The notes below the pieces were generated by a model that saw only the letters and a list, made by a program, of their open reading frames with translations, ran no database searches and was not told where the DNA came from. Positions 5,667-22,733 of a stretch of DNA of 38,787 bases are shown in pieces. The translations under genes and the position numbers were made by a program. The DNA lies in IMG/VR virus record IMGVR_UViG_3300030085_004377, positions 1 through 38,787 of that record; one strand, 5' to 3'. Origin of the DNA: a virus. Each line of letters starts with the position of its first letter. The first letter of the stretch is position 1.

Positions 5667-5785
5667 TGGCCAATGAGCCTTGTAAATGGCCAATGGTTAA
5701 CGGTCAACGGTGCGTTGTGCGTGGTCAGTTAATCGGTCAACACCATGCGCGTAAAATGGTCAACGAACAACGGCCATCGGATCGG
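5667..5785. repeat. degenerate GGTCAACGG/TGGCCAATG repeat cluster
   Basis: This short stretch is richer in G and C than its surroundings. TGGCCAATG occurs twice (5667 and 5687), then GGTTAACGG and GGTCAACGG overlap in tandem (5695-5710), with further copies near 5723, 5735 and 5757. The stretch 5757-5780 matches, at 19 of 24 positions, the reverse complement of a repeat inside the gene at 13334. The last codons of the VRR-NUC gene run into the cluster, giving the odd ending WPLFVDHFTRMVLTD. The remainder of 5505-5728 holds no gene I can support. Confidence 0.6.
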
Positions 5786-6124
5786 AATTTTAATAACAAA
5801 ATCAGGCTTAAGGGCGCGCGGATCAGTGAAAAAAGATCGAACTCTATAAATTTTAAGGGCTTTCTCTTTGAAGGCCTTAACTAAGATCAACACCGTTGCG
5901 CCATGTTTAACGGCTCTATTGATCCATACGATTTGATATTTATTTAATGTCGGATAATTGACCTGATTTGATTTTAATTCACACCAAAAAGATTTGCCTT
6001 TATATATTCCAAAAACATCAGGAACACCCGAGACAGTCAGGGTTTCAATTCTAGTTAAAAAATATCCCTGATCACTGAGAGCATTTTTAACTTGTTTCCA
6101 TAGTTGCGCTTCAGATCCTGACAT
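5729..6124 (-). CDS. VRR-NUC domain nuclease
   Basis: This 131-residue protein is nearly all one VRR-NUC domain of the PD-(D/E)XK superfamily, known in phages as a Holliday-junction or structure-specific nuclease. SEAQLWKQV starts the first helix, GVPDVFG gives the first catalytic Asp (36), and FWCELKS gives the Glu (49) and Lys (51), followed by the conserved KYQIVWINR helix with Gln 64. It probably resolves branched DNA before packaging. The last 15 or so residues come from the repeat cluster downstream and look added on. It stands alone on the minus strand between terL and the divergent early promoter, with palindromic operator sites just upstream of its start. Confidence 0.85.
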   Translation of the reverse strand: MSGSEAQLWKQVKNALSDQGYFLTRIETLTVSGVPDVFGIYKGKSFWCELKSNQVNYPTLNKYQIVWINRAVKHGATVLILVKAFKEKALKIYRVRSFFTDPRALKPDFVIKIPIRWPLFVDHFTRMVLTD

Positions 6125-6133
6125 GTGATTTAA

Positions 6134-6165
6134 TTACAACATCTGTTGTAAAAATACAACACAAC
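6134..6165. promoter_or_regulatory. palindromic operator array (TACAAC/GTTGTA)
   Basis: TTACAAC-ATCT-GTTGTAA is a perfect inverted repeat with 7-base arms (6134-6151). The right arm pairs again with the next TACAAC (6155-6160) across AAAA, so three half-sites alternate in direction. It lies in the leader of the VRR-NUC gene and about 35 bases behind the rightward early promoter, as expected for a dimeric repressor controlling both directions. A similar palindrome precedes the promoter at 7954. Confidence 0.5.
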
Positions 6166-6186
6166 TTATACGCGAAATTAATTTGG

Positions 6187-6237
6187 GGGTGCGACACTTT
6201 TGACAGTATAAAAAAATATTGTCTTATAATATCTTAT
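6187..6237 (+). promoter_or_regulatory. early rightward promoter
   Basis: TTGACA (6200-6205) and TATAAT (6225-6230) are perfect sigma-70 boxes, though the 19-base spacing is long. GGGTGCGACA sits just upstream (6187-6196) and is repeated exactly before the promoter at 7954. The segment GTCTTATAATATCTTAT (6221-6237) recurs with one change at 10208-10224. It would drive the small-gene operon that begins at 6278. Confidence 0.65.
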
Positions 6238-6277
6238 CATTATGAGAAATAATAAAACAAACAACACAGAGGAAACA

Positions 6278-6433
6278 ATGTACGATTACGATAAAGAAGC
6301 TTATAAATCTTATAGAAAATATCTAGCCCAAAAATTAAGAGCTGAAAGATATGAAGATAAGATTATTAAAAAACAACTAAAAGAAATTGCTGAAGAACAG
6401 AGACAAGCACAAAAAGAATTGGATAACCAATAA
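6278..6433 (+). CDS. small charged helical protein, first gene of early operon
   Basis: I start at the ATG after CAGAGGAAACA, giving 51 residues (MYDYDKEAYKSYRKYLA); an in-frame ATG 12 codons earlier has no ribosome site and sits too close to the promoter. The protein is almost entirely charged and helical (KLRAERYEDKIIKKQLKEI), probably one long helix or coiled coil. As the first gene after the strong promoter it should be made early and in quantity. No family is recognised. Confidence 0.65.
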   Translation: MYDYDKEAYKSYRKYLAQKLRAERYEDKIIKKQLKEIAEEQRQAQKELDNQ

Positions 6434-6453
6434 TACAACTAATAGGAGAAAAT

Positions 6454-6924
6454 ATGAAAAAACTAACATTAAAAAAACTAGAAAAAATAATGATCAAACT
6501 AGTTAAAGACAATCAAGAACACGCTGAAAATATCAGGGTACAAAAAATAGATGACAAAAGATTTTATGTACTTTGCGATATTAGATACCCAGATTTTATA
6601 GCTAAAGAAGATTATAAAAAATGGGAAGAAAGCCCAGAATACACGGGTTGGATTGAATGGAAAAAAGGGGACAACCTAAAACAAGACGATGAATTCAATG
6701 TCAAATGGGTTCAGTTTGGAATTGATCAGAATGAAAGTAATAGATTTTTTTACTCAATAGACGGATTGCCTTCACAAGATTATTTTTTGGACAGTACGGG
6801 CTACGGGGTATTAAATAACGAAAAGGCTATTGAGGGTCTTCAAAAAGATATGGCTGAATATGGAATGATGTTTGAGCCGTATCACTCAATGACGGGTGTG
6901 TTAGATCACGCATACCAATTATAA
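6454..6924 (+). CDS. unknown early protein, 156 residues
   Basis: The gene starts after AATAGGAGAAAAT. The N-terminal 25 residues are a basic helix (MKKLTLKKLEKIMIKLVKDN) and the rest is acidic and aromatic-rich, with several tryptophans and a DYFLDSTGYGVL segment. I recognise no domain. It is second in the early operon and is followed by a strong hairpin at 6931. Confidence 0.7.
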   Translation: MKKLTLKKLEKIMIKLVKDNQEHAENIRVQKIDDKRFYVLCDIRYPDFIAKEDYKKWEESPEYTGWIEWKKGDNLKQDDEFNVKWVQFGIDQNESNRFFYSIDGLPSQDYFLDSTGYGVLNNEKAIEGLQKDMAEYGMMFEPYHSMTGVLDHAYQL

Positions 6925-6930
6925 ACCAAC

Positions 6931-6946
6931 GGGGGCGCAAGCCCCC
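6931..6946 (+). other. GC-rich intercistronic hairpin with GCAA tetraloop, copy 1
   Basis: GGGGGC-GCAA-GCCCCC is a perfect 6-base-pair stem closed by a GNRA tetraloop. No T-run follows, so it is not a standard terminator. It is followed by an A-rich stretch and the ribosome site of the next gene. The same 16 bases occur at 8330-8345 in an equivalent place. mRNA stabilisation or processing within the polycistronic message is the simplest guess. Confidence 0.7.
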
Positions 6947-6968
6947 ACAACAAAAAAGGGAAAAGACG

Positions 6969-7463
6969 ATGAAAAATATAAGTTATAAAAACTACTTAAG
7001 ATCAACTAGAAATCTCTACTACAGAGACGAGGACGGGATAAGAATTTTTTATTCTTACAGTACGCCCGTTGCATTTATAGATAGTGACAATACATTAGTT
7101 ATTTCAGAAAATGTATGGTCAGTGACTACGGCAAAGCACTTGAATTGGATTGAGGATTTTTGCGGGGTAGAGAGAAAACAATCAAGAACAAAAAACTCAG
7201 TCTTTAAAGACAGTCTAAAATTTAGACAATCAAAAGACGGTCAGGATATGACAGAGGCAAGACAAGACAATCATTTGAAAACAACGGCTATGGTTTCAAA
7301 ATTGTTTGGATTATTATCAACGGGGGATGAGCGAGCGATTGAACAGAAAAAAAGATTTTTCGAAATCGCGGGCTTAACGTTTCCTGAGGATTGGTACAGT
7401 CTAAGTCTTGAAGAAAAAACAAAAAGAATAAACTTAGCAGAACGATTTGGAATGGGGGAATAA
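6969..7463 (+). CDS. conserved phage protein, DUF8033-like N-terminus
   Basis: This 164-residue protein starts after AAAGGGAAAAGACG. Residues about 20-70 (RIFYSYSTPVAFIDSD and VWSVTTAKHLNWI) match the pattern I associate with DUF8033, a short phage domain seen in many marine phages: a strand pair followed by an S/T-T-x-K/R-H motif. The C-terminal part (AGLTFPEDWYSLSLEEKTKRI) is helical. The family has no known function. Its stop overlaps the start of the next gene (TAATG). The domain name is a recognition by eye. Confidence 0.65.
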   Translation: MKNISYKNYLRSTRNLYYRDEDGIRIFYSYSTPVAFIDSDNTLVISENVWSVTTAKHLNWIEDFCGVERKQSRTKNSVFKDSLKFRQSKDGQDMTEARQDNHLKTTAMVSKLFGLLSTGDERAIEQKKRFFEIAGLTFPEDWYSLSLEEKTKRINLAERFGMGE

Positions 7464-7711
7464 TGAAAATAAATAAAGATTTACATTTTTTAAAACTACA
7501 ATGTCAAAAACTTAAAATGTCGAGAAGAAATAGACATGTCTATTTTAAAAATTGTCGAGAAGATTTCGCAAATAATGATTTTATAGATTGGCATTTAAAA
7601 AGTTTAGCGGGTCAGGTGTCTTATGACAGTTCAACTGTAGGTTGTAATGTTGGATATCATCCTGAGCCGTTGCCGTCACTAAGTCAAATTGAAGGGACAT
7701 TTGAGGGGTAA
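7463..7711 (+). CDS. small unknown early protein
   Basis: The 82-residue protein is coupled to the gene before it by a TAATG overlap. It has a basic first half (KMSRRNRHVYFKN) and a polar second half with GCNVGYHPEPLPSLSQ. No domain or membrane segment is visible. The next gene begins three bases after its stop. Confidence 0.6.
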   Translation: MKINKDLHFLKLQCQKLKMSRRNRHVYFKNCREDFANNDFIDWHLKSLAGQVSYDSSTVGCNVGYHPEPLPSLSQIEGTFEG

Positions 7712-7713
7712 CT

Positions 7714-7893
7714 ATGGAAGATGGACAAGCAGAGATAAAAATAAGATTAAAAAAAGGTAAGATCACAGTATTACATCCTGAGGGTAATTTTAAACTTGCA
7801 GAATGGATCGCGAGCAAAGGGGATTGGAATAGACTTTGGGATGTGATCGATAAGATGGTTAAGGACAATCGAGGTATTCGAGCGGGTAAGTAG
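7714..7893 (+). CDS. short unknown early protein, 59 residues
   Basis: A short frame starts at the ATG right after TTGAGGGGTAAC, reading MEDGQAEIKIRLKKGK and ending GIRAGK. It looks like a small alpha/beta protein with a strand (ITVLHPEG) and an amphipathic helix (FKLAEWIASKGDWNRLWDVID). Spacing, ribosome site and codon use match its neighbours. It ends the first segment of the operon, before a second promoter region. Confidence 0.6.
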   Translation: MEDGQAEIKIRLKKGKITVLHPEGNFKLAEWIASKGDWNRLWDVIDKMVKDNRGIRAGK

Positions 7894-7916
7894 ATTGGAA
7901 TGATTCTAATTAACTA

Positions 7917-7982
7917 CAACCTAAGGTTGAATATGGGTGCGACAATAATGTCGTTGATTATCTTATTTACATGGGATATAGT
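7917..7982 (+). promoter_or_regulatory. second early promoter with palindromic operator
   Basis: CAACCT-A-AGGTTG (7917-7929) is a perfect palindrome preceded by TA, so it shares the TACAAC half-site seen at 6134. It is followed by GGGTGCGACA (7935-7944), identical to the element at 6187, and then by TTGATT (7954-7959) and TATAGT (7977-7982) at the ideal 17-base spacing. The arrangement parallels the promoter at 6187 and would drive genes from 8030 onwards. Confidence 0.65.
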
Positions 7983-8029
7983 GGGTTATGTTTAATAAAT
8001 TAATAAATATAAATATAGGAGAAGATACA

Positions 8030-8311
8030 ATGAGTGAAAAATTAAACTTAAAAGAACACTATGGAAGACCTTCAGAATTTGCTTTATCGGTAGCAATGGA
8101 AGGTATCAAAAACGAGATCATCAAAATTAAAGAGCAGATCGATAATGATGAAATTGTTGGAGATAAGAAAAAATATTTACAAGCGTTATTTGATTTCAAT
8201 AATAAACTTGTTGATCAATACGCTCGTAAAGGTGGGGACGCTTCGGGTTATTGGTTAGAATTCGAAGAAGATAAAAATGATCCATATAAGATATGGAATT
8301 TTATCTATTAA
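8030..8311 (+). CDS. unknown early protein, 93 residues
   Basis: I start at the ATG after ATAGGAGAAGATACA (MSEKLNLKEHYGRPSEFAL), not at an upstream in-frame ATG that lacks a ribosome site. The protein is acidic and helical: KEQIDNDEIVGDKKKYLQALFDFNNKLVDQYARK looks like a coiled helix pair, and the end is aromatic (GYWLEFEEDKNDPYKIWNFIY). Function unknown. It is the first gene after the promoter at 7954. Confidence 0.65.
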   Translation: MSEKLNLKEHYGRPSEFALSVAMEGIKNEIIKIKEQIDNDEIVGDKKKYLQALFDFNNKLVDQYARKGGDASGYWLEFEEDKNDPYKIWNFIY

Positions 8312-8329
8312 TAATAAACAATGGAGGCG

Positions 8330-8345
8330 GGGGGCGCAAGCCCCC
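8330..8345 (+). other. GC-rich intercistronic hairpin with GCAA tetraloop, copy 2
   Basis: The same GGGGGC-GCAA-GCCCCC hairpin as at 6931, again between a stop codon and a purine-rich ribosome site (here AAAGAGGAAAAG). An extra G on the 5' side leaves the stem unchanged. No T-run follows. Confidence 0.7.
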
Positions 8346-8364
8346 AAACAACAAAGAGGAAAAG

Positions 8365-8505
8365 ATGAACATAAAACAAATTGAAAAAGAAATAATAAAA
8401 GCAATAAAGATCGAGGCCGAAATACCTTTACAAAGTGCAGAAGGTTATAAGGACTTAATCAAGTTTGTAAAAAAACTATTCAAAGAATACAGAGAGGGGC
8501 AATAA
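8365..8505 (+). CDS. very small helical protein, 46 residues
   Basis: The start ATG follows AAAGAGGAAAAG directly downstream of hairpin copy 2; the longer in-frame reading would translate the hairpin itself and is rejected. The product (MNIKQIEKEIIKAIKIEAEI) is a lysine/glutamate-rich helix. Its stop overlaps the next start (TAATG). Function unknown. Confidence 0.6.
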   Translation: MNIKQIEKEIIKAIKIEAEIPLQSAEGYKDLIKFVKKLFKEYREGQ

Positions 8506-8690
8506 TGATTGATAAAAAAATTAATTTAATAAGAAAGATGAGAGTTGAATTAGATCAAATAACAACTGATTGTTTTGATAAACAATATCCAAGTTATATT
8601 TCTAATAATTTAACCACAGTTTTAAGTATCTTAGATAAAACTATCACAAATTTATCAGAACACAAAAAAGGGGGCAATCATGATAACTGA
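8505..8690 (+). CDS. small unknown early protein, 61 residues
   Basis: Coupled to the preceding gene by a TAATG overlap and to the next by an 11-base overlap. The sequence (MIDKKINLIRKMRVELDQI) suggests two helices separated by a polar loop. No recognised family. Confidence 0.6.
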   Translation: MIDKKINLIRKMRVELDQITTDCFDKQYPSYISNNLTTVLSILDKTITNLSEHKKGGNHDN

Positions 8691-8913
8691 TCAAGAATGC
8701 GAAAACGCCCTTAAATTATTTAACTCAGGCCAATGGCTTCAATTAGAGGGATCTGTCGGCAGATGGGTTGATGATTTTGTGCAATCAGAAATAATTGTAC
8801 AAGATGAAAAAAACGGCACTGTTTCAATCATAGACGGCTACGGTAGACCCGTTAGCTACAACAAAGGGCATATCGATTGGGACAGAGTTTCAACAATACA
8901 GATGGAGGGATAA
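8680..8913 (+). CDS. small unknown early protein, 77 residues
   Basis: The start follows AAAGGGGGCAATC within the end of the preceding gene. A helical N-terminus (DQECENALKLFNSGQWLQL) leads into a strand-rich part (SEIIVQDEKNGTVSIIDGYG). It looks like a compact alpha/beta fold, but I cannot name it. Confidence 0.65.
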   Translation: MITDQECENALKLFNSGQWLQLEGSVGRWVDDFVQSEIIVQDEKNGTVSIIDGYGRPVSYNKGHIDWDRVSTIQMEG

Positions 8914-8917
8914 GACA

Positions 8918-9343
8918 ATGATGGATATAGATACTATTGTTGCATTAAATAAAGAGGCGGGTAATAAAGCAAAAAGACACGGAATGAAACCTACGACTTT
9001 CACAGAGAGTGGTATTTCAAAAATTAAAGATGGTCAGATCGAATGCTTGAGGGATATTGTAAATATCGGAAACTATACCCCAAAAGGTTGGAGACGGTTT
9101 GATGTTAATAAATGGGTTGAAGAGTGGGATCTACCTTATTCATTTAAATTTTTGGATAAAGGGGGTCTATTTGTTGATAGTTCGGGGTTTGGTTCAGACA
9201 ATGAACCCGCGCTAACGGTGGATCAATTATTAGATGTGATGGCTCAATTACTAACTCAGAGATCAGATTTAGGCTTTGGCATTATATCAGAGGGGCAATT
9301 TCAAATTACAATAGGAGTATTTGAAAATGTCAGAGTTAATTGA
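8918..9343 (+). CDS. unknown early protein, 141 residues
   Basis: Starts after GGAGGGATAAGACA; a second ATG follows immediately and could be used instead. The middle (NIGNYTPKGWRRFDVNKWVEEWDLP) is tryptophan-rich, and the C-terminal half looks like a helix plus strand pair (LTVDQLLDVMAQLLTQ, GFGIISEGQFQITIGVF). No catalytic motif is visible. It overlaps the start of the small membrane protein gene. Confidence 0.65.
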   Translation: MMDIDTIVALNKEAGNKAKRHGMKPTTFTESGISKIKDGQIECLRDIVNIGNYTPKGWRRFDVNKWVEEWDLPYSFKFLDKGGLFVDSSGFGSDNEPALTVDQLLDVMAQLLTQRSDLGFGIISEGQFQITIGVFENVRVN

Positions 9344-9503
9344 AATGTTTTTTGGATTTGTAGCGTTCATAATTTTTGTAATTCTTCTTGTAGCCTATTT
9401 GGGCTACAAGGGAGTTGAGGAGGTTATCGAGCAGAAAAATTTAGAATATCAAATACGTTTAAAAAAATCTTTTGATAAACAAAAAGAAAGAGAGGGAAAA
9501 TGA
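9327..9503 (+). CDS. small single-pass membrane protein
   Basis: I use the ATG nine bases after ATAGGAG (58 residues). Residues about 8-28 (FFGFVAFIIFVILLVAYLGY) form one clear transmembrane helix, followed by a charged tail (KKSFDKQKEREGK) that should face the cytoplasm. As an early phage membrane peptide it could affect superinfection, the host envelope or lysis timing; nothing in the sequence decides this. Its stop overlaps the next ATG. Confidence 0.65.
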   Translation: MSELIEMFFGFVAFIIFVILLVAYLGYKGVEEVIEQKNLEYQIRLKKSFDKQKEREGK

Positions 9504-9748
9504 AAAAAAAATATCTAGTAAAATTTAATTGTATCATAGGAGAGTATGAACATTTAGACAGCTATGTTTTCGATAAAAAAATGTCAGAGTATGGATATTG
9601 CAAAAAATTTTGGGGTTTAACAAAAAAGAATGAATTAAAAACAAATGTTTTTTGGGATGACTTTGAAATGAATGCAATTAAAGTTTATTCAGAAAAAGAA
9701 ATAACAAGTCAACAAGCAGATTTATTAAATGAATTGGGGGTAGCATGA
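9500..9748 (+). CDS. small unknown early protein, 82 residues
   Basis: Starts within ATGA overlapping the preceding stop, after AGAGAGGGAAA. The protein begins with a basic strand (MKKKYLVKFNCIIGEYEHL), has a central aromatic stretch (GYCKKFWGLTKKNELKTN), and ends with a short helix (SQQADLLNELGVA). Function unknown. Confidence 0.6.
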   Translation: MKKKYLVKFNCIIGEYEHLDSYVFDKKMSEYGYCKKFWGLTKKNELKTNVFWDDFEMNAIKVYSEKEITSQQADLLNELGVA

Positions 9749-9915
9749 AAAAATTTAGAGTATCATTACAAGTAGATCAAAGTTGGGTTGATAATTTTGA
9801 TTTAGTTTTTGAAGCAGAGGACTACTCAGACGCAGAAGCGCAAGCGTTTGTTCAAATAAAACAAAATTTGGGAGATTACTTTCACGCAGTTATAGATGAA
9901 GAGGAGGGAAAATAA
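9745..9915 (+). CDS. short acidic early protein, 56 residues
   Basis: ATGA overlap with the preceding stop and a GGGGGTAGC region just upstream support this short gene. The product, MKKFRVSLQVDQSWVDNFDL..., continues with FEAEDYSDAEAQAFVQ and ends EEEGK. It is a strand-helix-strand pattern typical of small phage alpha/beta proteins. The next gene's ribosome site lies in its last codons. Confidence 0.6.
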   Translation: MKKFRVSLQVDQSWVDNFDLVFEAEDYSDAEAQAFVQIKQNLGDYFHAVIDEEEGK

Positions 9916-9916
9916 A

Positions 9917-10141
9917 ATGCAAAATAAATTATATATTCATTTATTAAATAGTGAGGATGAAAAAAAACTTGAATGGGCAGAAGAAATTAGAAACAGAAGA
10001 CACGATTTTAATTGTTGGAACCCAGAAGAGCCAGATTGTCCAAATCATCAACACGCAGATCACCGTTTAATTGATGTTGATGAAGGTGAACGACAATATC
10101 CAATGTGTAAAACTTGTTATGAAAGTTGGATAATGGGATGA
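9917..10141 (+). CDS. small cysteine/histidine protein, possible zinc binder
   Basis: Starts one base after the previous stop, behind GAGGAGGGAAAATAA. The 74-residue protein has a helix (SEDEKKLEWAEEIRNRRHDF) and then CWNPEEPDCPNHQHADHR and YPMCKTCYESW. Four cysteines and several histidines in this spacing could hold one zinc ion. No known finger class fits exactly. It ends the second segment of the early operon. Confidence 0.6.
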   Translation: MQNKLYIHLLNSEDEKKLEWAEEIRNRRHDFNCWNPEEPDCPNHQHADHRLIDVDEGERQYPMCKTCYESWIMG

Positions 10142-10207
10142 AAAAATACAAAATAATAACATAGAAGGGGATGGAATAACGCTAAAAAAATAGTTTGCAA
10201 TTTTAGT

Positions 10208-10224
10208 GTCTTATGATATCTTAT
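10208..10224 (+). promoter_or_regulatory. third early promoter element
   Basis: GTCTTATGATATCTTAT matches 16 of 17 bases of the element overlapping the -10 of the promoter at 6225. TATGAT (10212-10217) can serve as -10. No good -35 is seen at 17 bases, so an activator or the shared 17-base element itself may matter. It lies in a 100-base gap and ends just before GGGAGGAGG. Confidence 0.45.
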
Positions 10225-10241
10225 GGGAGGAGGAAAAGAAA

Positions 10242-10547
10242 ATGAAACATAAAATAAGCGTAACTCAAAAAGATATAGAAAATGGTGAACCAGGAAATTG
10301 TCAAAAATGTGCAGTTGCTTTAGCGGTGCAAAGAGAATTTCCGTCAAAGCAAATAGAGGTAAGAGCAGTTGAAAATGATAATAATGGTTTTGAAGAAACA
10401 AAAGGGGGAATGATATATATTGCTTTAGATGACAAATTATATCATTTTGATGATGATATTGTGAATGATAAACTTTATACCTTTATAGACAGATTTGATG
10501 GAGAATACGGAGTAGATCCTTTTGAATTTGAATTGGAGGTTCGATAA
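10242..10547 (+). CDS. early protein of tandem pair, copy A
   Basis: Start chosen after GGGAGGAGGAAAAGAAA (101 residues). The N-terminus MKHKISVTQKDIENGEPGNC leads into QKCAVALAVQREF and aligns with the next gene's product along its first 35 residues (DI-NG-P-NC--CA-A--R-F). A similar 'I-x-G-x-x-x-x-C-P-x-A-x-A' opening occurs in small proteins of other phages, from general knowledge. The C-terminal half is strongly acidic. Function unknown. Confidence 0.7.
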   Translation: MKHKISVTQKDIENGEPGNCQKCAVALAVQREFPSKQIEVRAVENDNNGFEETKGGMIYIALDDKLYHFDDDIVNDKLYTFIDRFDGEYGVDPFEFELEVR

Positions 10548-10858
10548 TGAAATATAAAATCAATGTTAATGAAGAAGATATAAAAAACGGAATTCCATCT
10601 AATTGCAATGCTTGTGCAATCTCTCAGGCATTGAGGAGGAAATTTAATACTGATGAAACTTATACGATGATTGATGACGCAACGGGAGACGTGTCTATAC
10701 AAATAGATGACAGAGAATTTCAAGTTAATCATATGCACGAAAGTGATGTTGCAGATTTTATCTATGACTTTGATAATTATGCAAATGATCATTTTAACAA
10801 TTTAGATCCTGAGGAGTTAAAACCAATAACTTTTGAAATTATAGAGAGGTCAGCATGA
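10547..10858 (+). CDS. early protein of tandem pair, copy B
   Basis: Overlaps copy A by one base (TAATG). MKYKINVNEEDIKNGIPSNC followed by NACAISQALRRKF repeats the opening of copy A, with both cysteines kept, and both proteins end in a similar acidic region (YDFDNYANDHFNNLDPEEL here, FIDRFDGEYGVDPFEF there). The pair most likely arose by tandem duplication. DNA identity is too low for a recent event. Confidence 0.7.
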   Translation: MKYKINVNEEDIKNGIPSNCNACAISQALRRKFNTDETYTMIDDATGDVSIQIDDREFQVNHMHESDVADFIYDFDNYANDHFNNLDPEELKPITFEIIERSA

Positions 10859-11028
10859 TGAAATATAAATGCACAAAATGTAAAAGCGAATTAGAGTGGG
10901 ATGAAAATTGTAACATCGAGGAGGCTTTAGGTTATTACTATTGTTCTAATAATGATTGCGAAAGTAATAGTTTTAGTGGTAGCGCACACAAAGTTTATTA
11001 CCCTACGGGAGAGGTTTGGTATGAGTGA
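10855..11028 (+). CDS. small zinc-ribbon-like protein
   Basis: A 57-residue protein starting at one of two consecutive ATGs overlapping the previous stop. CTKC near residues 6-9 and CSNNDC near 35-40 form two cysteine pairs about 27 residues apart, the layout of a small zinc ribbon. It may bind nucleic acid or a host protein. The next gene starts inside its last codons. Confidence 0.65.
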   Translation: MMKYKCTKCKSELEWDENCNIEEALGYYYCSNNDCESNSFSGSAHKVYYPTGEVWYE

Positions 11029-11209
11029 TCAAACAAAATGGAGAATACCTGAGGTCATATCGGAAAATCACGCAAAGAGATATGAAAACGAAACACGGAA
11101 AAAATTTCAAACATGGTTGGAGGAGTGTCCCGTCATGTTTGCAAGTAGGGAAACGGACGACCCTAATTTTGTCCAATACATATTTAACTTACAAAGAAGG
11201 AGGAAATAA
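11021..11209 (+). CDS. small unknown early protein, 62 residues
   Basis: I use the ATG after CGGGAGAGGTTTGGT (MSDQTKWRIPEVISENHAKR); a longer in-frame start would overlap the zinc-ribbon gene deeply and lacks a ribosome site. The protein is mostly charged, with LEECPVMFASRETDDPNF in the middle. No family recognised. Confidence 0.6.
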   Translation: MSDQTKWRIPEVISENHAKRYENETRKKFQTWLEECPVMFASRETDDPNFVQYIFNLQRRRK

Positions 11210-11211
11210 AT

Positions 11212-11412
11212 ATGTTTTTAATAATAAGAGAGCAAACTTTTAGTAATATGGAAAGCAGTTTTAGGATTGTAGGACAATACAAGACTAAAGAAATAGCAGA
11301 AGAAAAAAGAACGGCCTTCAGAGTAATTGAAGATAAGGGGAATGTATTTTTTTACATTTGTGAAACCCCGTTGCGATTAACTGAGGAGGTTGAAAATGTC
11401 GACAAGGAGTAA
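11212..11412 (+). CDS. small unknown early protein, 66 residues
   Basis: Preceded by a perfect AAGGAGG two bases after the prior stop. It has a strand-helix-strand pattern (MFLIIREQTFS, KTKEIAEEKRTAFRVI, NVFFYICETP) and an acidic end. It overlaps the next gene by 17 bases. Function unknown. Confidence 0.65.
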   Translation: MFLIIREQTFSNMESSFRIVGQYKTKEIAEEKRTAFRVIEDKGNVFFYICETPLRLTEEVENVDKE

Positions 11413-11938: not shown

Positions 11939-11961
11939 ACGAATTGGCTTAGGCGGGGAGG

Positions 11962-12424: not shown

Positions 12425-12949
12425 CTAGACGTTTTCAATTTTTTTTGTTTCAACCGTTTCGGCTTCGATAGTCTTTGCATTGTATCCGTCTATTTTATTT
12501 GATAATTCTTTTAGTTTATTTTCTAATTCTTCTCTACTCATACCTTCAAGGCCTGAAACTTTTACCTCTCTCTTATCGACATATAGCCCCGCTAATTGCC
12601 CGGATCTATATTCAGCCTGAACGGATACATTAAATTGTTTATTTTTTTCAGCTTCTTTAGATAATTTATCTAAACGTCTAAATCTTTTTAATTTATCTTT
12701 TGAAAATTTATTTACTTCTTCTTCGTATTTTTTATCGAGGTATTTTGCTATGTGAGGATTTAATCTTCGATTTAACAATCTAGAAGCTATGGCGGAATAA
12801 TCTGTAGGATTTTTGCACTCATACTTTGCTTGTTTGCAAGCTTCAGCATATGAAATTTCACCCCAATTTGCAACGAGAATGTCAACAAACAATCTTTGCT
12901 TAGGTGTTAAGTCTTTTTCGGATCTGTCTGTTTTTTTAATTTGAGCCAT
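12425..12949 (-). CDS. terS: terminase small subunit
   Basis: This DNA-recognition subunit marks the packaging start and activates TerL. LTPKQRLFVDILVANWG followed by YAEACKQAKY (residues 14-42) is the N-terminal helix-turn-helix pattern of the family. A helical middle (70-110) would oligomerise, and AEYRSGQLAGLYVDKREVKV with SGLEGMSREELENKL (112-147) is the common ending of phage TerS proteins. 174 residues is normal. Its gene lies about 7 kb from terL, separated by the opposite-strand early operon. A repeat-rich non-coding region directly upstream may hold its binding site (inference). Confidence 0.8.
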   Translation of the reverse strand: MAQIKKTDRSEKDLTPKQRLFVDILVANWGEISYAEACKQAKYECKNPTDYSAIASRLLNRRLNPHIAKYLDKKYEEEVNKFSKDKLKRFRRLDKLSKEAEKNKQFNVSVQAEYRSGQLAGLYVDKREVKVSGLEGMSREELENKLKELSNKIDGYNAKTIEAETVETKKIENV

Positions 12950-13034
12950 TTTTCTACTATATAGATTATTTTAACACATTAAAATAGTTCAAAATAGTTA
13001 CGGAGGGTATCTATATTAGCAATATTATTGTTTA

Positions 13035-13141
13035 GGTGTCCCTGAGGGACACCATAGGGACACCATAGGGACACCATAAAAACGTCTTAAAAGGTTGTTA
13101 TTACTATCTTTTTTGTCTTTAGGGACACGAGGGACACCATA
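13035..13141. repeat. iteron-like GGGACACCATA repeats with palindrome
   Basis: GGGACACCATA is repeated three times in perfect tandem at 13046-13078, with a partial copy at 13122 and another full copy at 13131-13141. The first copy is the right arm of the palindrome GGTGTCCC-TGA-GGGACACC (13035-13053). Direct repeats plus a palindrome next to terS fit a TerS binding site or origin iterons. Confidence 0.75.
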
Positions 13142-13202
13142 TTGACCCCTGAGGGTATTTTTTTATTAGTGGAGGTCTAGATAATCTATATAGATAAAAT
13201 TC

Positions 13203-13333: not shown

Positions 13334-13771
13334 TTATATTTTTTCCTCGGGGGTTTTCTTTAGTCCCCCAATACTTTTAATCTCTTTAAGTATTTTTCTA
13401 CGCTCAGCTTTGTCGTGGCTTTGTCTATATTGCTTATATAACCATCTATACCTAAGCCATTTCAATTGAATTTTGGTATACCTTATTGTCTTATTTGATA
13501 TTAACTCATTGAATTTGCTTCTAATTATATCAGGCTCAAAGCTAGCAAACCAACAAATATTGGTAAAATTTTGTGTATCATTTGTAAACCAATTATAACT
13601 ATCTTGCTTCGCATAAGCGTCATGTTTGTGTTGACCCATGTTCAGTGCGTCTTCAAACGCTTGCAATATTATGGCCTGAAACAACCGTTCTTCCGGTGTC
13701 CGTTGTCCGTTTATCAGTTCCCGTGATATACTAATGCCCAAAATTTTTAACAAGTTTAACGAATAATTCAC
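13334..13771 (-). CDS. conserved phage protein with RLFQAIILQAFEDA motif
   Basis: This 145-residue protein starts at GTG seven bases after AAGG and overlaps the preceding gene by 41 bases. Its core, PEERLFQAIILQAFEDALN then SYNWF and a conserved aromatic/cysteine stretch (FTNICWFASFEPDIIRSKF), belongs to a family I know from many marine phages, with no proven role. A basic helix follows (RYRWLYKQYRQSHDKAERRK). Residues just before the core, INGQRTPEE, are encoded by a GC-rich repeat also found in the helicase gene. Confidence 0.65.
   Translation of the reverse strand: MNYSLNLLKILGISISRELINGQRTPEERLFQAIILQAFEDALNMGQHKHDAYAKQDSYNWFTNDTQNFTNICWFASFEPDIIRSKFNELISNKTIRYTKIQLKWLRYRWLYKQYRQSHDKAERRKILKEIKSIGGLKKTPEEKI
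13693..13711. repeat. dispersed repeat, copy in gene 13334-13771
   Basis: CCGGTGTCCGTTGTCCGTT matches the helicase-gene copy at 22190-22208 at 18 of 19 bases. It is translated on the minus strand as NGQRTP. Confidence 0.65.
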
Positions 13772-14785: not shown

Positions 14786-14811
14786 ACAAGGCCCACGCTA
14801 GCGGGCCTTGT
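14786..14811 (-). terminator. GC-rich hairpin between genes, leftward
   Basis: ACAAGGCCC and GGGCCTTGT form a perfect 9-base-pair stem with an 8-base loop. On the minus strand it is followed by TAGAAAAATTTATT, a weak U-tract. It would partly terminate or stabilise the message between the 71-residue gene and the oxygenase gene. Confidence 0.5.
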
Positions 14812-16370: not shown

Positions 16371-16378
16371 AGGATTTT

Positions 16379-16687: not shown

Positions 16688-16692
16688 CTTGC

Positions 16693-16971
16693 ATGAAGCT
16701 TTATCGCGTCCAAGCAAACTATAAGAATATATATATTGATGAGACGCTTGAGGCCGAGAACGATAAAGCCGTGCTTGAGGATTTTGTAAAGAAGGTTGCC
16801 TCAGGCAATGTAACAGAAAGAGAAGGCCCAGGATTTTATAATCCTGACCATTTATTCTTAACCTTCGAGGAGGTTGACCGAGATGCAACTACAAAAGTTA
16901 ATATCGGAGAAACTCCAATTGGAATCAAAGTGGGCCAACCAAGCTTTGAGCCAAGGAAGAGTAACGACTGA
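16693..16971 (+). CDS. small unknown protein, leaderless start likely
   Basis: The 92-residue product (MKLYRVQANYKNIYIDETLE) begins with two strands and a helix (NDKAVLEDFVKKVASG). It starts five bases after a perfect -10 box with no room for a ribosome site. Its last 89 bases overlap the next gene in another frame, so the C-terminal part may be dispensable. No family recognised. Confidence 0.55.
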   Translation: MKLYRVQANYKNIYIDETLEAENDKAVLEDFVKKVASGNVTEREGPGFYNPDHLFLTFEEVDRDATTKVNIGETPIGIKVGQPSFEPRKSND

Positions 16972-17071
16972 TATGAAATGGATAGATATCAAGATCAAGG
17001 ATCTTAAAAAGAGGATTAATGATCAGAGTGTCGAAGACGCAAAAAAAGGTCTTTTAGACATCGCTAGTTAA
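16883..17071 (+). CDS. small conserved helical protein
   Basis: The ATG follows CGAGGAGG at good spacing (62 residues). KLISEKLQLESKWANQALSQG followed by RVTTDMKWIDIKIKDLKKRI is a two-helix pattern seen in small conserved phage proteins. It overlaps the gene before by 89 bases in another frame and ends inside the stem of a strong terminator. Function unknown. Confidence 0.65.
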   Translation: MQLQKLISEKLQLESKWANQALSQGRVTTDMKWIDIKIKDLKKRINDQSVEDAKKGLLDIAS

Positions 17072-17092
17072 AAACTAGTATTTTTTTATTTT
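17063..17092 (+). terminator. rho-independent terminator
   Basis: CTAGTT-AAA-AACTAG is a perfect 6-base-pair stem (17063-17077) followed by TATTTTTTTATTTTT. It overlaps the stop codon of the gene at 16883 and should end the short rightward unit. Confidence 0.8.
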
Positions 17093-17115
17093 TCATATAA
17101 ATTCGTAGGCTATTT

Positions 17116-17595
17116 ATGTCTTCAAATTATTTCACTAAGTATAAATGTGAAAGTTTTAATTATATTAAAAAAGATTTAATTGAATTAATTTATAAAGATA
17201 AAAATGGTAAGTCTGATAAAACTATTTCTAAGACAGATTATTTTTCAAAGCAAAAAGGTGAATGGTTTAATTTATTTAAAGATAAAGTTTTAAAACAATT
17301 TAGTCTTTGGTTTATGAAAGAACATGAAGCAGAAAATTTTTTTTGCGAACATTGTTGGTATCAAATTTATAAAAAAAATGATTTTCATGAAACCCATACT
17401 CATAGAGGCACCAATTTTACAAATATTTTTTATCTACAATTACCAAATTCTAATTCTAAAACCTATATAAAAAATTTCGATTTGAATGTAGAGGAAGGTG
17501 AACTAATTTCATTTCCTGCTTTTATTCCGCATGGTTCAAAAATTAATTTGAGTGATAAAGATAAAATAATAATTTCTTTTAATAGCTCGATATAA
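17116..17595 (+). CDS. 2-oxoglutarate/Fe(II)-dependent oxygenase-like protein
   Basis: This 159-residue protein carries a second version of the 2OG-Fe(II) fold. WYQIYKKNDFHETHTHRGTN supplies H94-x-H96 as two metal ligands (His in place of the usual Asp, though H91 and H94 could be used instead), NIFYLQLPN is the next strand, and GELISFPAFIPHGSKIN gives the distal H139. The usual arginine before SFN is a lysine (K150). This layout resembles the family of putative 2OG oxygenases in T4-like and marine phages. It lies after a terminator with only a weak TAGG ribosome site. Substrate unknown. Confidence 0.7.
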   Translation: MSSNYFTKYKCESFNYIKKDLIELIYKDKNGKSDKTISKTDYFSKQKGEWFNLFKDKVLKQFSLWFMKEHEAENFFCEHCWYQIYKKNDFHETHTHRGTNFTNIFYLQLPNSNSKTYIKNFDLNVEEGELISFPAFIPHGSKINLSDKDKIIISFNSSI

Positions 17596-17835
17596 ATTAA
17601 AATTTATAAATCCCACAAAATCCCAGAAAGTTGCAAATTGTCGCATCTATAATCTAACACCCTAAAATGCGATTGCTCTAGAATTCAATAAAAAATATTT
17701 TTCGCCTAAAAAGTGCAAAACCAAATTTAGTATAATGTCATTATAAAAATTTTTATGAGAAATTTTTATTAGTGATAAGAAAAGTCACTTAGCTATTAAA
17801 CATCGTGAATATGGTCAAGTAACAAGGAGAGCAAC
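17596..17835. other. 240-base non-coding leader
   Basis: No gene is seen. Two TATAAT boxes (17648-17653 and 17731-17736) face right but neither has a good -35 at normal distance. The sequence AAATTTTTAT is repeated twice near 17750-17770. The region leads into CAAGGAGAGCAAC before the gene at 17836. Confidence 0.4.
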
Positions 17836-18486
17836 ATGAGTGAAAAATCAGTCAGTCAAACTCTAACCAAGTTAGACTCAATGATGGCATCGTTAGATGT
17901 CAAATTTAATACCATGAAAAAATATCGAGATTGCAATTCAACATTGCCCGATGTTCTTCCATACATAACTAAAGAAGAAGCTCAACGAGCATATAGACTT
18001 TTAGTTAGAAAGTTTGGAAGAAAAACAAAAGCATATCCTCGTGGAAACATTGCTTACCAAAACTATCAATGGAAGAATGTTAAAATGAGAGTAAGAGAGG
18101 TAAGACCTTTTGGAAAAAAAGCGTTTGAAACTTTTACAAGAAGATGTTGGATCTGTTTATCCGGTGATCCGTCAACTTTACATAATGGATGGAGAAGATT
18201 AATCCATGATGTATCGCACATGGTTCATAAATGGTTAAGGCCAAACATGAACCATCATTGCTACCAACAAGCTGAACTAGAATTGGACATGATTAAGTAT
18301 GTACAGTTCAAAGGTTGGTTAAATGGTACTTTGAAGAAAAAGAAAATTGTTCTCTCGCCTGAAGATAAAAAGCTGAAGAAGATAAAACACTTTGAAGCTT
18401 TGGTAAAAAAGTGGGAAACAAAAAATAAAACAACTTTGACTTACTTGAAAAAGTATAAAGCAAAGTTAAAACGTTTAAATAAATAA
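17836..18486 (+). CDS. unknown phage protein with HDxxH motif
   Basis: This 216-residue basic protein starts after CAAGGAGAGCAAC. The central segment WRRLIHDVSHMVHKWLRP (about 119-136) followed by NHHCYQQAELELDMI contains H124-D-x-x-H128, more histidines (131, 140, 141) and glutamates 147 and 149. The arrangement resembles a zincin-like helix in which the E of HExxH is D; this could be a metal site or coincidence. The C-terminal 60 residues are a lysine-rich helix (KKLKKIKHFEALVKKW), likely to bind nucleic acid. The family recurs in marine phages but has no known role. Confidence 0.7.
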   Translation: MSEKSVSQTLTKLDSMMASLDVKFNTMKKYRDCNSTLPDVLPYITKEEAQRAYRLLVRKFGRKTKAYPRGNIAYQNYQWKNVKMRVREVRPFGKKAFETFTRRCWICLSGDPSTLHNGWRRLIHDVSHMVHKWLRPNMNHHCYQQAELELDMIKYVQFKGWLNGTLKKKKIVLSPEDKKLKKIKHFEALVKKWETKNKTTLTYLKKYKAKLKRLNK

Positions 18487-18531
18487 CAACAACCTTGACC
18501 ATATTCACAAATTAATTAAAAGGAAAAAGAT

Positions 18532-18669
18532 ATGTCATTTGAATGGAAACACCCGAACTACTATAAAGAACTTAAAAAAATCCAAGAGAGCGAAAGTAAG
18601 AAGGAGTTGGAGAACAATGAGGACAAGGAGATGAATGAAGAATCTCAAGATCCTCAATCACAAGATTAA
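18532..18669 (+). CDS. very small acidic protein, 45 residues
   Basis: Starts after AAAAGGAAAAAGAT. MSFEWKHPNYYKELKKIQES is followed by a highly acidic, glutamine-rich tail ending QDPQSQD. It could be an early inhibitor peptide mimicking acidic surfaces, but nothing shows that directly. Its stop codon lies in the loop of a hairpin. Confidence 0.6.
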   Translation: MSFEWKHPNYYKELKKIQESESKKELENNEDKEMNEESQDPQSQD

Positions 18670-18677
18670 CTCTTGTG
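18659..18677. terminator. hairpin between convergent genes
   Basis: CACAAGA-TTAAC-TCTTGTG is a perfect 7-base-pair stem with a 5-base loop placed between the rightward gene ending at 18669 and the polymerase gene ending at 18699. There is only a weak U-tract on the plus side (TTGTT), so bidirectional or rho-aided termination is likely. Confidence 0.5.
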
Positions 18678-18698
18678 TTGTTACAGTGATTGCAATTA

Positions 18699-20567
18699 TT
18701 ATTCCTTAGCTTCTCCCCAGGATCGTCCGAGGGCAATATCAACTTTGGAAGGTACTTTGAGACTGTCGACTGCATTTTCCATCTTTTCTTTTATTGTTTT
18801 AATTTCATTTTCATTTCCTATTGAAAAACATAATTCATCGTGGATTTGTAGTAAAGGCATAAATCCCGCTTTGTAGCAATCAATCATAGCTTGTTTAGTT
18901 TGATCGGCCGCTGATCCTTGTATCAATCTATTTAAAGCTTTGTAAGTATAGGCCCTTCTGATGTTATTTCCATAAATGGCCTTAGCCTCCTCGTAGTGCA
19001 TAGCTTTATTCATTCCGAAGGTAGATGGCTCCCACATGTCAAATCGGCATTTACGGCCCTTTAACGTTCGAATAAAGCCATATTTTGAGGCACTGTTAGT
19101 CACCTCTACAGCTAATTTTTTAACAAATGGCACTCTGTCATTATAAGTTATCAAAAGCCTTTCAGCAGAGTCTTTATCTATACCTAACTCTTTAGCTAAT
19201 TTGGCCTTACCCATACCATAGAATAATCCAAGGTTAATTGTTTTAGCTTGAGTTCTTGATATGCCTGCCATGTCAGCCACTATTTGATGAAAGTCAGCCT
19301 CTTCGTTTTCGTAAGCTTGAATAAATTCGTCAGCCCCCGGAAATTGTTTTGCAACTGAGGCCGCGTAATGAGCCACAAGTCTAGGCTCTTGTTGTGAATA
19401 ATCAAAGCTACCCCATTGTCTTCCTTCTTCAGCTAAAAATAATCCACGAATTTTATCTCCAAACTCTTTGTTTCTTGCGGGAATTTGTTGTAAGTTCGGA
19501 TTTGAATATGATAAACGCCCCGAAACAGTTCCACCCTGATCGGATCTTAATTGATTTATCTCAGAGTGAATTCTACCTTTGTGGGTATATCTTAAAATGG
19601 AGTCTATAAATGTTGAATGGAATTTATTTATTTCTCTTGCTTCTCTTATTAGTTGCGCTATCGGGTTATTACAGTTCATTAGCCAATTTTGCGTGAAGCT
19701 AGGTTCTTCGGTTTTCGTTGTCCGTGGGTACTCAACACCAATACGATCAAACACTTGCGCAACAGATCTAGCCGCCCAAATATCTACATTGATAGTAGTT
19801 TCATCTTTTATTTTTTTAAGAACAATGGACTCTTTTTCTTTGAACTCTTTTTTTAATGAGTGAGCTTTTGCTTCATCCACCCTTATTCCCCGTTGTCTCA
19901 TTTTAATTAAGATAGGAAGCAATTCCATTTCCATTTCCCAAACATCGTGAAGATCTTGTTTTATAATTTCTTGTTTTAGTCTTTGCCAAAGCCTTAGGGT
20001 TAACCCTGCATCTTGCTCAGCATAGAAGCCTACGTAGCCCGCAGGCAGTCTCCAGAGATCAGCTTTAGGGTCAATTCCCCATTCTTTAGCTTTTTCGTTG
20101 AGAAACGTTTCATTTTTAATTTCACCTAAATAGTCTTTTGCACAAGCATTTAAACTAAAACTGTATCTGTTTTCATTTACAATCGCGGCCGCAACCATCG
20201 TGTCAACTATCTTCCCATTTATTTCAAAACCATTTACTAACAACCAACCTACATCATAGCTTGCATTGTGAAAAATTTTAGTTGCAGGAGTTTTTAAAAT
20301 ATCTTGAAACCATGCGCATGTTATCGACAAATCCATGTTACCACCCGCATCATGTTGAATTGGAAAATACCATTGTTGATCAAAGGCCGCTACAGCAAAG
20401 CCAACAATTCCTCCATCAAATGTGGCCCACCCTGATCCTTTTGTTTTAATGTTAGGATCTTTTGTTTCTAAGTCAATTGCTATTTCTTTTGCTTGAGATA
20501 AGTCTGGGTATTCTGAGGGACAGATCCAATCACTGTCGTTGTATATAAAATTAAGTTGATGTGTCAT
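18699..20567 (-). CDS. polA: family A DNA polymerase with 3'-5' exonuclease
   Basis: This is the replicative polymerase, 622 residues. Exonuclease motifs: AIDLETKDP (D32, E34), FHNASYD (D105) and FYAEQDAG (Y182, D186). Polymerase motifs: TVSGRLSYSNPNLQQIP near 350, motif A GSFDYSQQEPR (D389), motif B R438-x3-K442-x3-L446-x3-Y450, and motif C IHDE (H576-D577-E578). No 5'-nuclease domain is present, as usual in phages. Position 446 corresponds to E. coli residue 762 and is leucine, not phenylalanine or tyrosine. It starts after GAAGAAGGTAA and follows the DUF3310 and helicase genes in the leftward replication operon. Confidence 0.96.
   Translation of the reverse strand: MTHQLNFIYNDSDWICPSEYPDLSQAKEIAIDLETKDPNIKTKGSGWATFDGGIVGFAVAAFDQQWYFPIQHDAGGNMDLSITCAWFQDILKTPATKIFHNASYDVGWLLVNGFEINGKIVDTMVAAAIVNENRYSFSLNACAKDYLGEIKNETFLNEKAKEWGIDPKADLWRLPAGYVGFYAEQDAGLTLRLWQRLKQEIIKQDLHDVWEMEMELLPILIKMRQRGIRVDEAKAHSLKKEFKEKESIVLKKIKDETTINVDIWAARSVAQVFDRIGVEYPRTTKTEEPSFTQNWLMNCNNPIAQLIREAREINKFHSTFIDSILRYTHKGRIHSEINQLRSDQGGTVSGRLSYSNPNLQQIPARNKEFGDKIRGLFLAEEGRQWGSFDYSQQEPRLVAHYAASVAKQFPGADEFIQAYENEEADFHQIVADMAGISRTQAKTINLGLFYGMGKAKLAKELGIDKDSAERLLITYNDRVPFVKKLAVEVTNSASKYGFIRTLKGRKCRFDMWEPSTFGMNKAMHYEEAKAIYGNNIRRAYTYKALNRLIQGSAADQTKQAMIDCYKAGFMPLLQIHDELCFSIGNENEIKTIKEKMENAVDSLKVPSKVDIALGRSWGEAKE
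19709..19725. repeat. possible dispersed-repeat copy inside polA
   Basis: CGGTTTTCGTTGTCCGT matches the repeat at 13694-13710 at 15 of 17 bases, including the exact core CGTTGTCCGT. It is translated as RTTKTE (residues 282-287) in a variable stretch of the polymerase. Confidence 0.4.
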
Positions 20568-20688
20568 TTACCTTCTTCTTTCTATTTTCTTTTTTTTCTT
20601 TATACCATTTTGTTTCTCTGCCATTTTTTTTGCACCATTCATAATGGTTTTTTAAAAGTTTTTTTGATAATCTTTTATCTTCAATCAT
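20551..20688 (-). CDS. very small lysine-rich protein, 45 residues
   Basis: An ATGA overlap with the DUF3310 stop and a 17-base overlap with the polymerase start fill the only gap in this operon. The product MIEDKRLSKKLLKNHYEWCK ends in a lysine-rich helix (EKKENRKKKVNDTST). Coupled spacing supports it; the function is unknown. Confidence 0.6.
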   Translation of the reverse strand: MIEDKRLSKKLLKNHYEWCKKNGRETKWYKEKKENRKKKVNDTST

Positions 20689-20930
20689 TTCTTTTTAGCG
20701 TCTTTTAATTTTTTTATTTCTAAATCACAATAATGTTTTATTTTTTCTAAATCTTCAATTCCATTTTTATGCTTATATCTACAAACATATTTAACAACAT
20801 TACCTTGAAAAAACGATAAATCATTTTTTGCAATGAACTCATACGGTTGAATGTCAAAAAATTTATAGTGGCTCCCTCCAATCTGCTTATCTTGTGGAAA
20901 AGCTTCATCAAACATATCTTTATCACTCAT
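20685..20930 (-). CDS. DUF3310 protein (SaV-like)
   Basis: This 81-residue protein contains QIGGSHYKFFDIQPYEFI followed by NVVKYVCRYKHKNGIEDLEK, the full pattern of DUF3310, a small domain next to nucleotide and replication genes in very many phages. Its role is not established; a link with nucleotide metabolism has been proposed. It sits directly before polA in the leftward operon. Its ATG overlaps the stop of the preceding gene. Confidence 0.9.
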   Translation of the reverse strand: MSDKDMFDEAFPQDKQIGGSHYKFFDIQPYEFIAKNDLSFFQGNVVKYVCRYKHKNGIEDLEKIKHYCDLEIKKLKDAKKK

Positions 20931-21130
20931 AGTTTATACTCCTGCAAAACTTTTATTTTCTCTTCAGCATTTGCAATCTTTTCAATTAATTTGTCTACCT
21001 CATCTACATGTTGAGGATGTTCTCCTATTCCAACCGGTTGTTCTAAATAAATTTTTATTGTTGCTTCAGCTTCAGAAATTTGTGCATTGTACCTATCCTC
21101 CAAAGCTTGAATTATTACTCTTTTAAACAT
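20927..21130 (-). CDS. small conserved protein with VGIGEHPQ motif
   Basis: This 67-residue helical protein has ISEAEATIKIYLEQPVGIGEHPQ followed by VDEVDKLIEKIANAEEK, a pattern known to me from small proteins next to replication genes in marine and cyanobacterial phages. It probably forms a helical hairpin and may assist a replication enzyme. It overlaps the helicase gene by eight bases and the next gene by four. Confidence 0.7.
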   Translation of the reverse strand: MFKRVIIQALEDRYNAQISEAEATIKIYLEQPVGIGEHPQHVDEVDKLIEKIANAEEKIKVLQEYKL

Positions 21131-22733
21131 AATTAGCCTCGTATAATTTATAATATTTTCCTAACGGAAAATTATATTGATGATGAGTGCCTAACAAATG
21201 TAATGTCCCTTTAGATCTGGTAGCACCCGTATACCAAACCCGAAGCTCTTTAATCTTTTCAGATAAATTTTTCTTTTCATAATGAGATGGAAAGTTACAT
21301 TTACTTGATAAAACAACGTTGTCTGCCTCTCCACCTTTTACTTGATGTATAGTATCTATTATAATTTTAGGCGGTTGAGATAAATCCACCCCCTCTTTTA
21401 TCATCTTTAAAAAATATTGTTTATCTTTTTCTTTAAATTTTCTTTTAAACACTTTTAACCATGATCCTTTTTCATCTCTCATACCACATCTGAGATGTAA
21501 TTCATCAAAATTAAACACTTGATTAGGATGAGCAAAAGACCATTTTTTGCTTTCTTGAGATCTAAATCCGTGGTCTATATTCAATAGATACTCATACATT
21601 ATACAAGCTTCTTCTCTTGTAATGCTTCCGCCCTCACAAACTTTTTCCCAATATTGAATTGCTTGAAACTGATTGATATCAAAAGATTTGTTGCCTTTTA
21701 CATCTTGATAATACAAAGATAAATTTTTAGCTTCTTCTTGTAGTTCTTTTTTTACATCATTAATTCTTGCAAGGACTAACCAAGTTCCTTCTGTTTTCCA
21801 AGGAACCTTTTTTAAACTATTCCAATAATGGATACTCCCCTCTTTATCATTAGAATAAAACTCTTTTTCTACTCTGTTGTTTTTCATTCCTTGCAATAAA
21901 CATTTAGAAAAGAAATGCACATTTTTATTTAATCTCACTGATTTTTTTAAAATAATATTTCTACCTGGAAAGCTTTGAAAGTATTCTACCTCTGCCCCGT
22001 TCCACTCATAGATAGCTTGATCGTCATCTCCTGCAATGTAAACTCTCCAAACATTCTTTGCAATTTTAACAACCATATCCCACTGCAACGGTGTGAGATC
22101 TTGAGCTTCATCGACCATCAATACTTTTATTGGTAGATTGCCTGCATCATCGATAAACTTTTTTACCATGTCAGTAAAATCTAAACGATCCGGTGTCCGT
22201 TGGCCGTTCTCCGTTTCCATTGTTTTGAACTCCTCGTAGCCTGCAATAATAGATTTGAACTGTTGTAGACGCACCGCTTTTCTAGGTTGTTGTTTATACA
22301 AAACTATCGGATCTATTTTCATGTTTCTTGCACGGTCGTATATCTGTAAAGACCAATTGTTATAAACTTTAGCCTCATCATATTCGTTTTTAAAATTTAT
22401 TTTTACAGTGCCGTATTGAGTATGGAACATTAATAAATCTGCTCTAGGATCTAATACGGGAATTTCAGCAAACTGTTGTCGGGCCAAAGAATGTAATGTT
22501 CGAAAGTATACAAAATCATCCTCATCATATTCTTTAAATTTTTTTCTAACTCTACTAACGCATTCATCAACGGCTTTATTTGTAAAAGATATGTAACATA
22601 TTTCGGACGGTGATATTCCTTGCTTGAGATACCTTTGAACTCTTTTGAGTAAGTTTTCAGTCTTACCCGTTCCAGGAGGCCCAAAAATTTTAATTGTCTT
22701 CCCACGCAGCTTTTTGTTTAACGAATTTGACAT
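21123..22733 (-). CDS. superfamily 1 (UvrD/Rep-like) DNA helicase
   Basis: This 536-residue helicase would unwind DNA 3' to 5' during replication or recombination. Motif I is GPPGTGKT (18-25), motif Ia ICYISFTNKAVDE, motif II VLMVDEAQDLTPLQW, motif III IAGDDDQAIYEWNGA, motif V DTIHQVKGGEADNVVL, and motif VI LRVWYTGATRSKG. It is shorter than bacterial UvrD, as is usual for phage versions. A short insert, ENGQRTPDR, between motifs Ia and II is encoded by a GC-rich dispersed repeat. It overlaps the primase gene by 44 bases, which suggests coupled translation. Confidence 0.93.
   Translation of the reverse strand: MSNSLNKKLRGKTIKIFGPPGTGKTENLLKRVQRYLKQGISPSEICYISFTNKAVDECVSRVRKKFKEYDEDDFVYFRTLHSLARQQFAEIPVLDPRADLLMFHTQYGTVKINFKNEYDEAKVYNNWSLQIYDRARNMKIDPIVLYKQQPRKAVRLQQFKSIIAGYEEFKTMETENGQRTPDRLDFTDMVKKFIDDAGNLPIKVLMVDEAQDLTPLQWDMVVKIAKNVWRVYIAGDDDQAIYEWNGAEVEYFQSFPGRNIILKKSVRLNKNVHFFSKCLLQGMKNNRVEKEFYSNDKEGSIHYWNSLKKVPWKTEGTWLVLARINDVKKELQEEAKNLSLYYQDVKGNKSFDINQFQAIQYWEKVCEGGSITREEACIMYEYLLNIDHGFRSQESKKWSFAHPNQVFNFDELHLRCGMRDEKGSWLKVFKRKFKEKDKQYFLKMIKEGVDLSQPPKIIIDTIHQVKGGEADNVVLSSKCNFPSHYEKKNLSEKIKELRVWYTGATRSKGTLHLLGTHHQYNFPLGKYYKLYEANYV
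22190..22208. repeat. dispersed repeat, copy in the helicase gene
   Basis: CCGGTGTCCGTTGGCCGTT differs at one base from the copy at 13693-13711. It is read on the minus strand as NGQRTP, just before the conserved DRLDFTDMVKK segment. Confidence 0.65.

Follow-up and report, generated by a model that had tools for sequence, protein, structure and literature searches.

The window and the shared word

The stretch of DNA analysed here (the window) is 38,787 bases long, corresponds to a complete IMG/VR record and has a GC content of 33.6%. It carries terS, terL and portal genes, together with genes for a DNA polymerase A, an AEP-type primase, and UvrD-like and SNF2-like helicases. The word CCGGTGTCCGTTG[T/G]CCGTT occurs in it at 13693 and 22190, with one difference between the copies, and is read in both cases as NGQRTP (Table 1). 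Pelagibacter phage HTVC023P is the nearest named relative for the three proteins that host the word (26-41% identity), and IMG/VR holds many relatives closer than this phage.

Table 1. Positions of the word, the heptamer arrays and the neighbouring features in the window
Feature	Position	Strand	Remarks
Conserved 7-mer AAGGCTC, immediately downstream of the array	5675..5681	-	130-225 nt upstream of terL in most relatives
Non-coding degenerate array CCGTTGA CCGTTAA CCATTGG CCATTTA	5683..5710	-	After the VRR-NUC stop codon, before terL
VRR-NUC/Hjc-like gene, 3' end (WPLFVD)	5757..5780	-	Weak match, accounted for by protein conservation
terS	12425-12949	minus	
145-aa protein, related to HTVC023P gp19	13334..13771	-	No Pfam or PHROG match
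NGQRTP codons; + strand CCGGTGT CCGTTGT CCGTT, two to three heptads	13690..13712	-	Arrived at through point substitutions
Copy 1, CCGGTGTCCGTTGTCCGTT	13693-13711	minus	NGQRTP in the 145-aa protein, no assigned family
UvrD/PcrA-like superfamily 1 helicase gene, 536 aa, carrying the loop	21123..22733	-	Pfam UvrD-helicase 6.9e-34; PcrA/UvrD/Rep structures
Copy 2, CCGGTGTCCGTTGGCCGTT	22190-22208	minus	NGQRTP in the UvrD-like helicase
Helicase heptads, four degenerate units GAAACGG AGAACGG CCAACGG ACACCGG	22190..22217	-	Lag 7, heptads of relatives, loop absence

The preliminary description of this DNA had reported the two copies, their single difference and their reading in two unrelated proteins, and all of this was confirmed; dinucleotide shuffles of the window gave no match to the word, nor did a reversed-pattern control. 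At the protein level the sharing is unsurprising alone, as six 6-residue peptides are shared between two proteins of the window against 2.7 expected among its 42 proteins. A GC-rich match of 18/19 nucleotides between genes, on the other hand, was never reproduced when the codons were resampled synonymously 60 times, because CGG and CCG, which both copies use, are rare codons (CGG makes up 20 of the 509 arginine codons of the window). The shared rare codons and the resampling result therefore imply something at the DNA level, as had been proposed.

The weaker copies that had been listed beside these two have a simpler explanation. The one placed at 5757-5780 is a weaker match (16/19 at 5762-5780) and encodes the conserved protein stretch WPLFVD. 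Those in polA (19707) and at 35093, and a further one at 2250, with the portal protein among the hosts, fall where the alignments to homologues contain no gaps, and most of the four stretches (VRR-NUC, polA, portal and the protein at 35094) are gap-free in HTVC023P too. Judged from these alignments, the four copies are ordinary conserved protein for which no repeat is needed.

Heptamers at three loci

The word falls into sevens, CCGGTGT CCGTTGT CCGTT, giving a degenerate unit that reads CCGKTNN on the plus strand and NNANCGG on the coding strand. Neither this period nor the best array, located in the spacer at 5683-5710, had been mentioned in the preliminary description, although its label of an NGQR-type repeat fits well, as the heptamer AACGGAC yields NGQRTTD in different phases whatever the frame. 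A scan for GC-rich self-matching segments at lags 4 to 21, covering the window, nine relatives and HTVC023P (~460 kb), found lag-7 segments only in the helicase loop, the 145-residue protein and the spacer between VRR-NUC and terL, each with at least two tandem units, and Tandem Repeats Finder reported period 7 at 13692-13711. When tandem GKTGDCC was compared with 250 permuted heptamers, the window showed three independent sites besides the helicase against 0.14 expected, a number reached by 2 of the 250 controls; the top-scoring controls were mostly close variants of the GKTGDCC unit itself. HTVC023P had no tandem GKTGDCC.

In the helicase, four heptads encode most of a loop insertion of 8-9 residues that runs into NGQRTP; the corresponding heptads of relative L033 are GAGACGG ACACCGG ACAACGG ACACCGG. 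Over the first 239 codons of 58 unique helicase sequences, lag-7 identity, which averaged 0.29 (sd 0.10), rose to 0.74 at codon 174; its next best value elsewhere was 0.46. Lag 7 outscored every other lag between 3 and 21, and a weaker peak at lag 14 fell on codon 174 too. The segment occupies the same place without indels in ~75 relatives (77-100% identity), whereas the 8-9 residues are missing from the helicases of L083 (51-52% identity), 023Pt_psg01, HTVC027P, ct3Et533 and Pan1, and HTVC023P, which lacks five of them, has a partial loop. Because the distant homologues lack these residues and the ~75 relatives all carry the segment, the loop is a lineage-specific insertion, old and fixed, and the in-frame insertion into coding sequence that had been suggested holds for the helicase when set against these distant homologues. 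An AlphaFold2 model (mean pLDDT 63, loop ~57-63) shows the loop as a turn between two short strands and is too weak for firm placement; the loop is presumably exposed.

The same kind of alignment gave a different picture for the 145-residue protein, so that the proposed comparison with repeat-free homologues revealed an insertion in the helicase but none here. The alignment is gap-free, and relatives show NEKRTP, KGNRLP and REQRLP in the columns of NGQRTP. These gap-free variants show that the word arose in this gene through point changes, next to the conserved stretch R[TL]PEERLF.

The repeat is at its clearest outside coding sequence. In the spacer, (CGTTGAC)n is present in 2-4 copies among relatives, which show GTGACCGTTGACCGTTGACCGTT and similar sequences, two to four units long, after the VRR-NUC stop codon. 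Copy number varies here by whole units among close relatives: between L198 and L200, whose flanks are nearly identical, the difference is a single 7-bp heptamer. In L196, L197, L199 and L201 the spacer reads CCGGTGTCCGTTGACC, the start of the word described earlier with one base changed. The array lies ~160-205 nt upstream of terL, and an Rfam search at the spacer matched no known RNA family.

Other features were observed around this spacer. More distant relatives (L124-L182; window 5500-5680) carry at the array site a hairpin with compensating changes in its stems, CCAATGGCG...CGCCATTGG and CCTATAGCCC...GGGCTATAGG, followed by AAGGCTC, a promoter-like TTTACA-N17-TATACT, GGG[T/A]CCC and terL; the window has TTGAAA-N17-TATGTT in place of the promoter-like element. 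An AT-rich imperfect hairpin, TTACTAGTGATAACTTTTCTTATCGTTAGTAA, adjoins the heptamer array after the VRR-NUC stop codon in L188, L194, L195, L199, L201 and L203 and is absent from the window.

A separate block of GGTGTCCC repeats lies directly upstream of terS (12975-13190), with three repeats at 11-bp spacing that end in a palindrome (13035-13075) and another at 13131. The block also contains a hairpin-like stretch, ACCCTCAGGGGT, and CTATATAG motifs at both ends. This arrangement is kept in G001, G003, G005, G002, G014 and G007, whereas the corresponding place in HTVC023P is occupied by several copies of another repeat, ACTAGGAAAA. The block is a candidate terminase-binding (packaging) site or operator. 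It shares with the heptad word only the 7-mer GGTGTCC, which we take as a coincidence. A Chi-like or other over-represented word was also rejected as an explanation of the heptad word: the most over-represented 8-mer of the window, AGGGACAC, comes from this block, and CCGTTGTC is prominent in relative G001 only. Elsewhere, a GC-rich hairpin, GGGGGCGCAAGCCCCC, occurs twice on the plus strand (6931-6946 and 8330-8345) in a cluster of small rightward genes, and ACAAGGCCCACGCTAGCGGGCCTTGT at 14786-14811 forms a strong hairpin whose counterparts in G001 and G003 are changed but still paired, and which is probably a terminator.

Origin of the word

Taking these data together, we consider it probable that the word belongs to a degenerate heptanucleotide simple-sequence repeat of the slippage type, (CCGKTNN)n, characteristic of one group of HTVC023P-like marine phages and translated where the frame allows. 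The gain and loss of whole 7-bp units in the spacer is what strand slippage during replication is expected to produce, and slippage would be the generating step. An array of four units would have grown, in the group's ancestor, at a turn in the helicase gene, giving rise to the loop of 8-9 residues. Such an array could be translated because every frame of the coding strand stays open through the heptamer: the unit creates no stop codon, and 7 has no factor in common with 3. The helicase array would afterwards have been inherited and worn by point mutation, and the match in the 145-residue protein would have come from point changes next to a conserved R-[TL]-P stretch, in which CGG and CCG codons are used. 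We infer slippage inside the genes, as no coding copy was seen to change length by heptamers among the relatives; the size of the loop, 24-27 nt, is not exactly the 28 of four units.

The preliminary description had instead favoured a small mobile or recombinogenic element, similar to the Rickettsia palindromic elements, that inserts in frame into phage genes. The insertion seen in the helicase against distant homologues, and the 18/19 nucleotides with rare codons shared by two unrelated proteins, would agree with such an element, but a mobile element would show other sites, and the word does not. Among the 2.9 million viral contigs of IMG/VR, CCGGTGTCCGTTGNCCGTT has 66 exact copies, all at three loci of one phage group: 63 in the helicase, which are copies by descent, two in the spacer and one in the 145-residue hypothetical protein. 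That the three copies outside the helicase all belong to the same group could reflect sequence copying between loci. Scanned for perfect hairpins with arms of at least 9, the window has none at 13693 or 22190, no conserved element boundary was found at the copies of the word, and the coding copies show no presence/absence polymorphism among close relatives. Rickettsia palindromic elements are palindromic, have longer units and occur scattered through many genes. They have in common with the phage word that short DNA is read in frame inside unrelated proteins; the phage unit is unlike them because it is a 7-bp tandem unit at three loci with no palindromic stable structure, boundary or coding polymorphism, and clean insertions at many unrelated sites were not found. 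With the 145-residue protein free of any insertion and the weak copies attributable to conserved protein, the exact-motif scan and the gap-free alignments mostly refute a mobile element, which we now regard as very improbable.

The low synonymous variation of the coding copies, which neutral decay does not predict, counts against a slippage repeat. In rank tests that were post hoc and made on related sequences, synonymous variation at the helicase GQRT was 0.22 of the amino-acid class mean, which puts it at rank 13 of 529 windows (most of those ranking above it belong to the part that overlaps the primase gene), and that at NGQRTP of the 145-residue protein was 0.09 of the class mean (rank 1 of 125). 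In addition, Thr-180 of the helicase, covered by 67 unique sequences, has the codon ACA in every one of them. These values leave room for constraint at the DNA or RNA level, or for homogenisation between units. Accordingly, the heptad word might be a putative DNA or RNA recognition site for packaging, replication, recombination or regulation, selected in the spacer and the coding copies, an explanation that we find unlikely. It would account for the enrichment of the word in the phage group, its absence from HTVC023P and the presence of the spacer copy in the region upstream of terL, but not easily for the small number of sites per genome, the erosion of the 145-residue copy in relatives, or a spacer array that L112 lacks and whose place is taken by a hairpin in other relatives. 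Similarly improbable is a functional DNA site that selection would keep both in the spacer before terL and at synonymous sites within two genes, for instance for the binding of a phage packaging or recombination protein.

Coincidence combined with ordinary protein conservation, the heptad being accidental at each site, is quite improbable as a general explanation. A shared six-residue peptide is indeed expected at this genome size, and R[TL]PEERLF and WPLFVD are conserved protein stretches; the lag-7 signal in the 58 helicases and the change in tandem copy number in the spacer nevertheless count strongly against coincidence at these two loci. The enrichment over permuted heptamers and the confinement of the extra exact copies to one phage group also speak against it. 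Coincidence may hold for the 145-residue protein alone.

A slippage-type heptamer repeat has counterparts outside phages. Heptameric repeats are over-represented in bacterial genomes, such as GGGAATC in Xanthomonas and GGGGA[T/C]T in Nostoc, and polymerase slippage has been proposed as their cause (PMC4692102). The phage repeat shares with them degenerate 7-bp units, a mostly intergenic location and a copy number that varies between close relatives, and differs in its unit sequence, which has no run of three or more G, in its few sites per genome and in having one array translated as a loop. In Beggiatoaceae, cyanobacteria and Bacteroidetes, TAACTGA heptamers are repeated directly two to six times, mostly in spacers as in the phage, and have been discussed as translatable in one orientation (PMC4679880). 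In contrast to those repeats, which in up to 169 sets lie a short way before start codons (PMC4679880), CGTTGAC occurs at three loci in the phage, none of them directly before a start codon, as the spacer array is well upstream of terL and the others are inside genes. Three tandem phage units in a row were found in 35 viral contigs and in at least 120 stretches of bacterial genomes, many of them from Bacteroidetes and cyanobacteria. A literature search for heptanucleotide repeats in phages returned nothing on point, and the papers searched contained no report from a pelagiphage.

In summary, the word is a tidy example, ordinary in kind, of a simple-sequence repeat built from heptamers, one array of which is translated within a loop of a helicase. 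It also carries a caution, since dispersed repeats spotted by eye in phage genomes can consist of simple-sequence repeats together with protein conservation. Furthermore, the growth of a heptamer array that is then frozen, as in the helicase, may be a plain route by which phage proteins gain loops.
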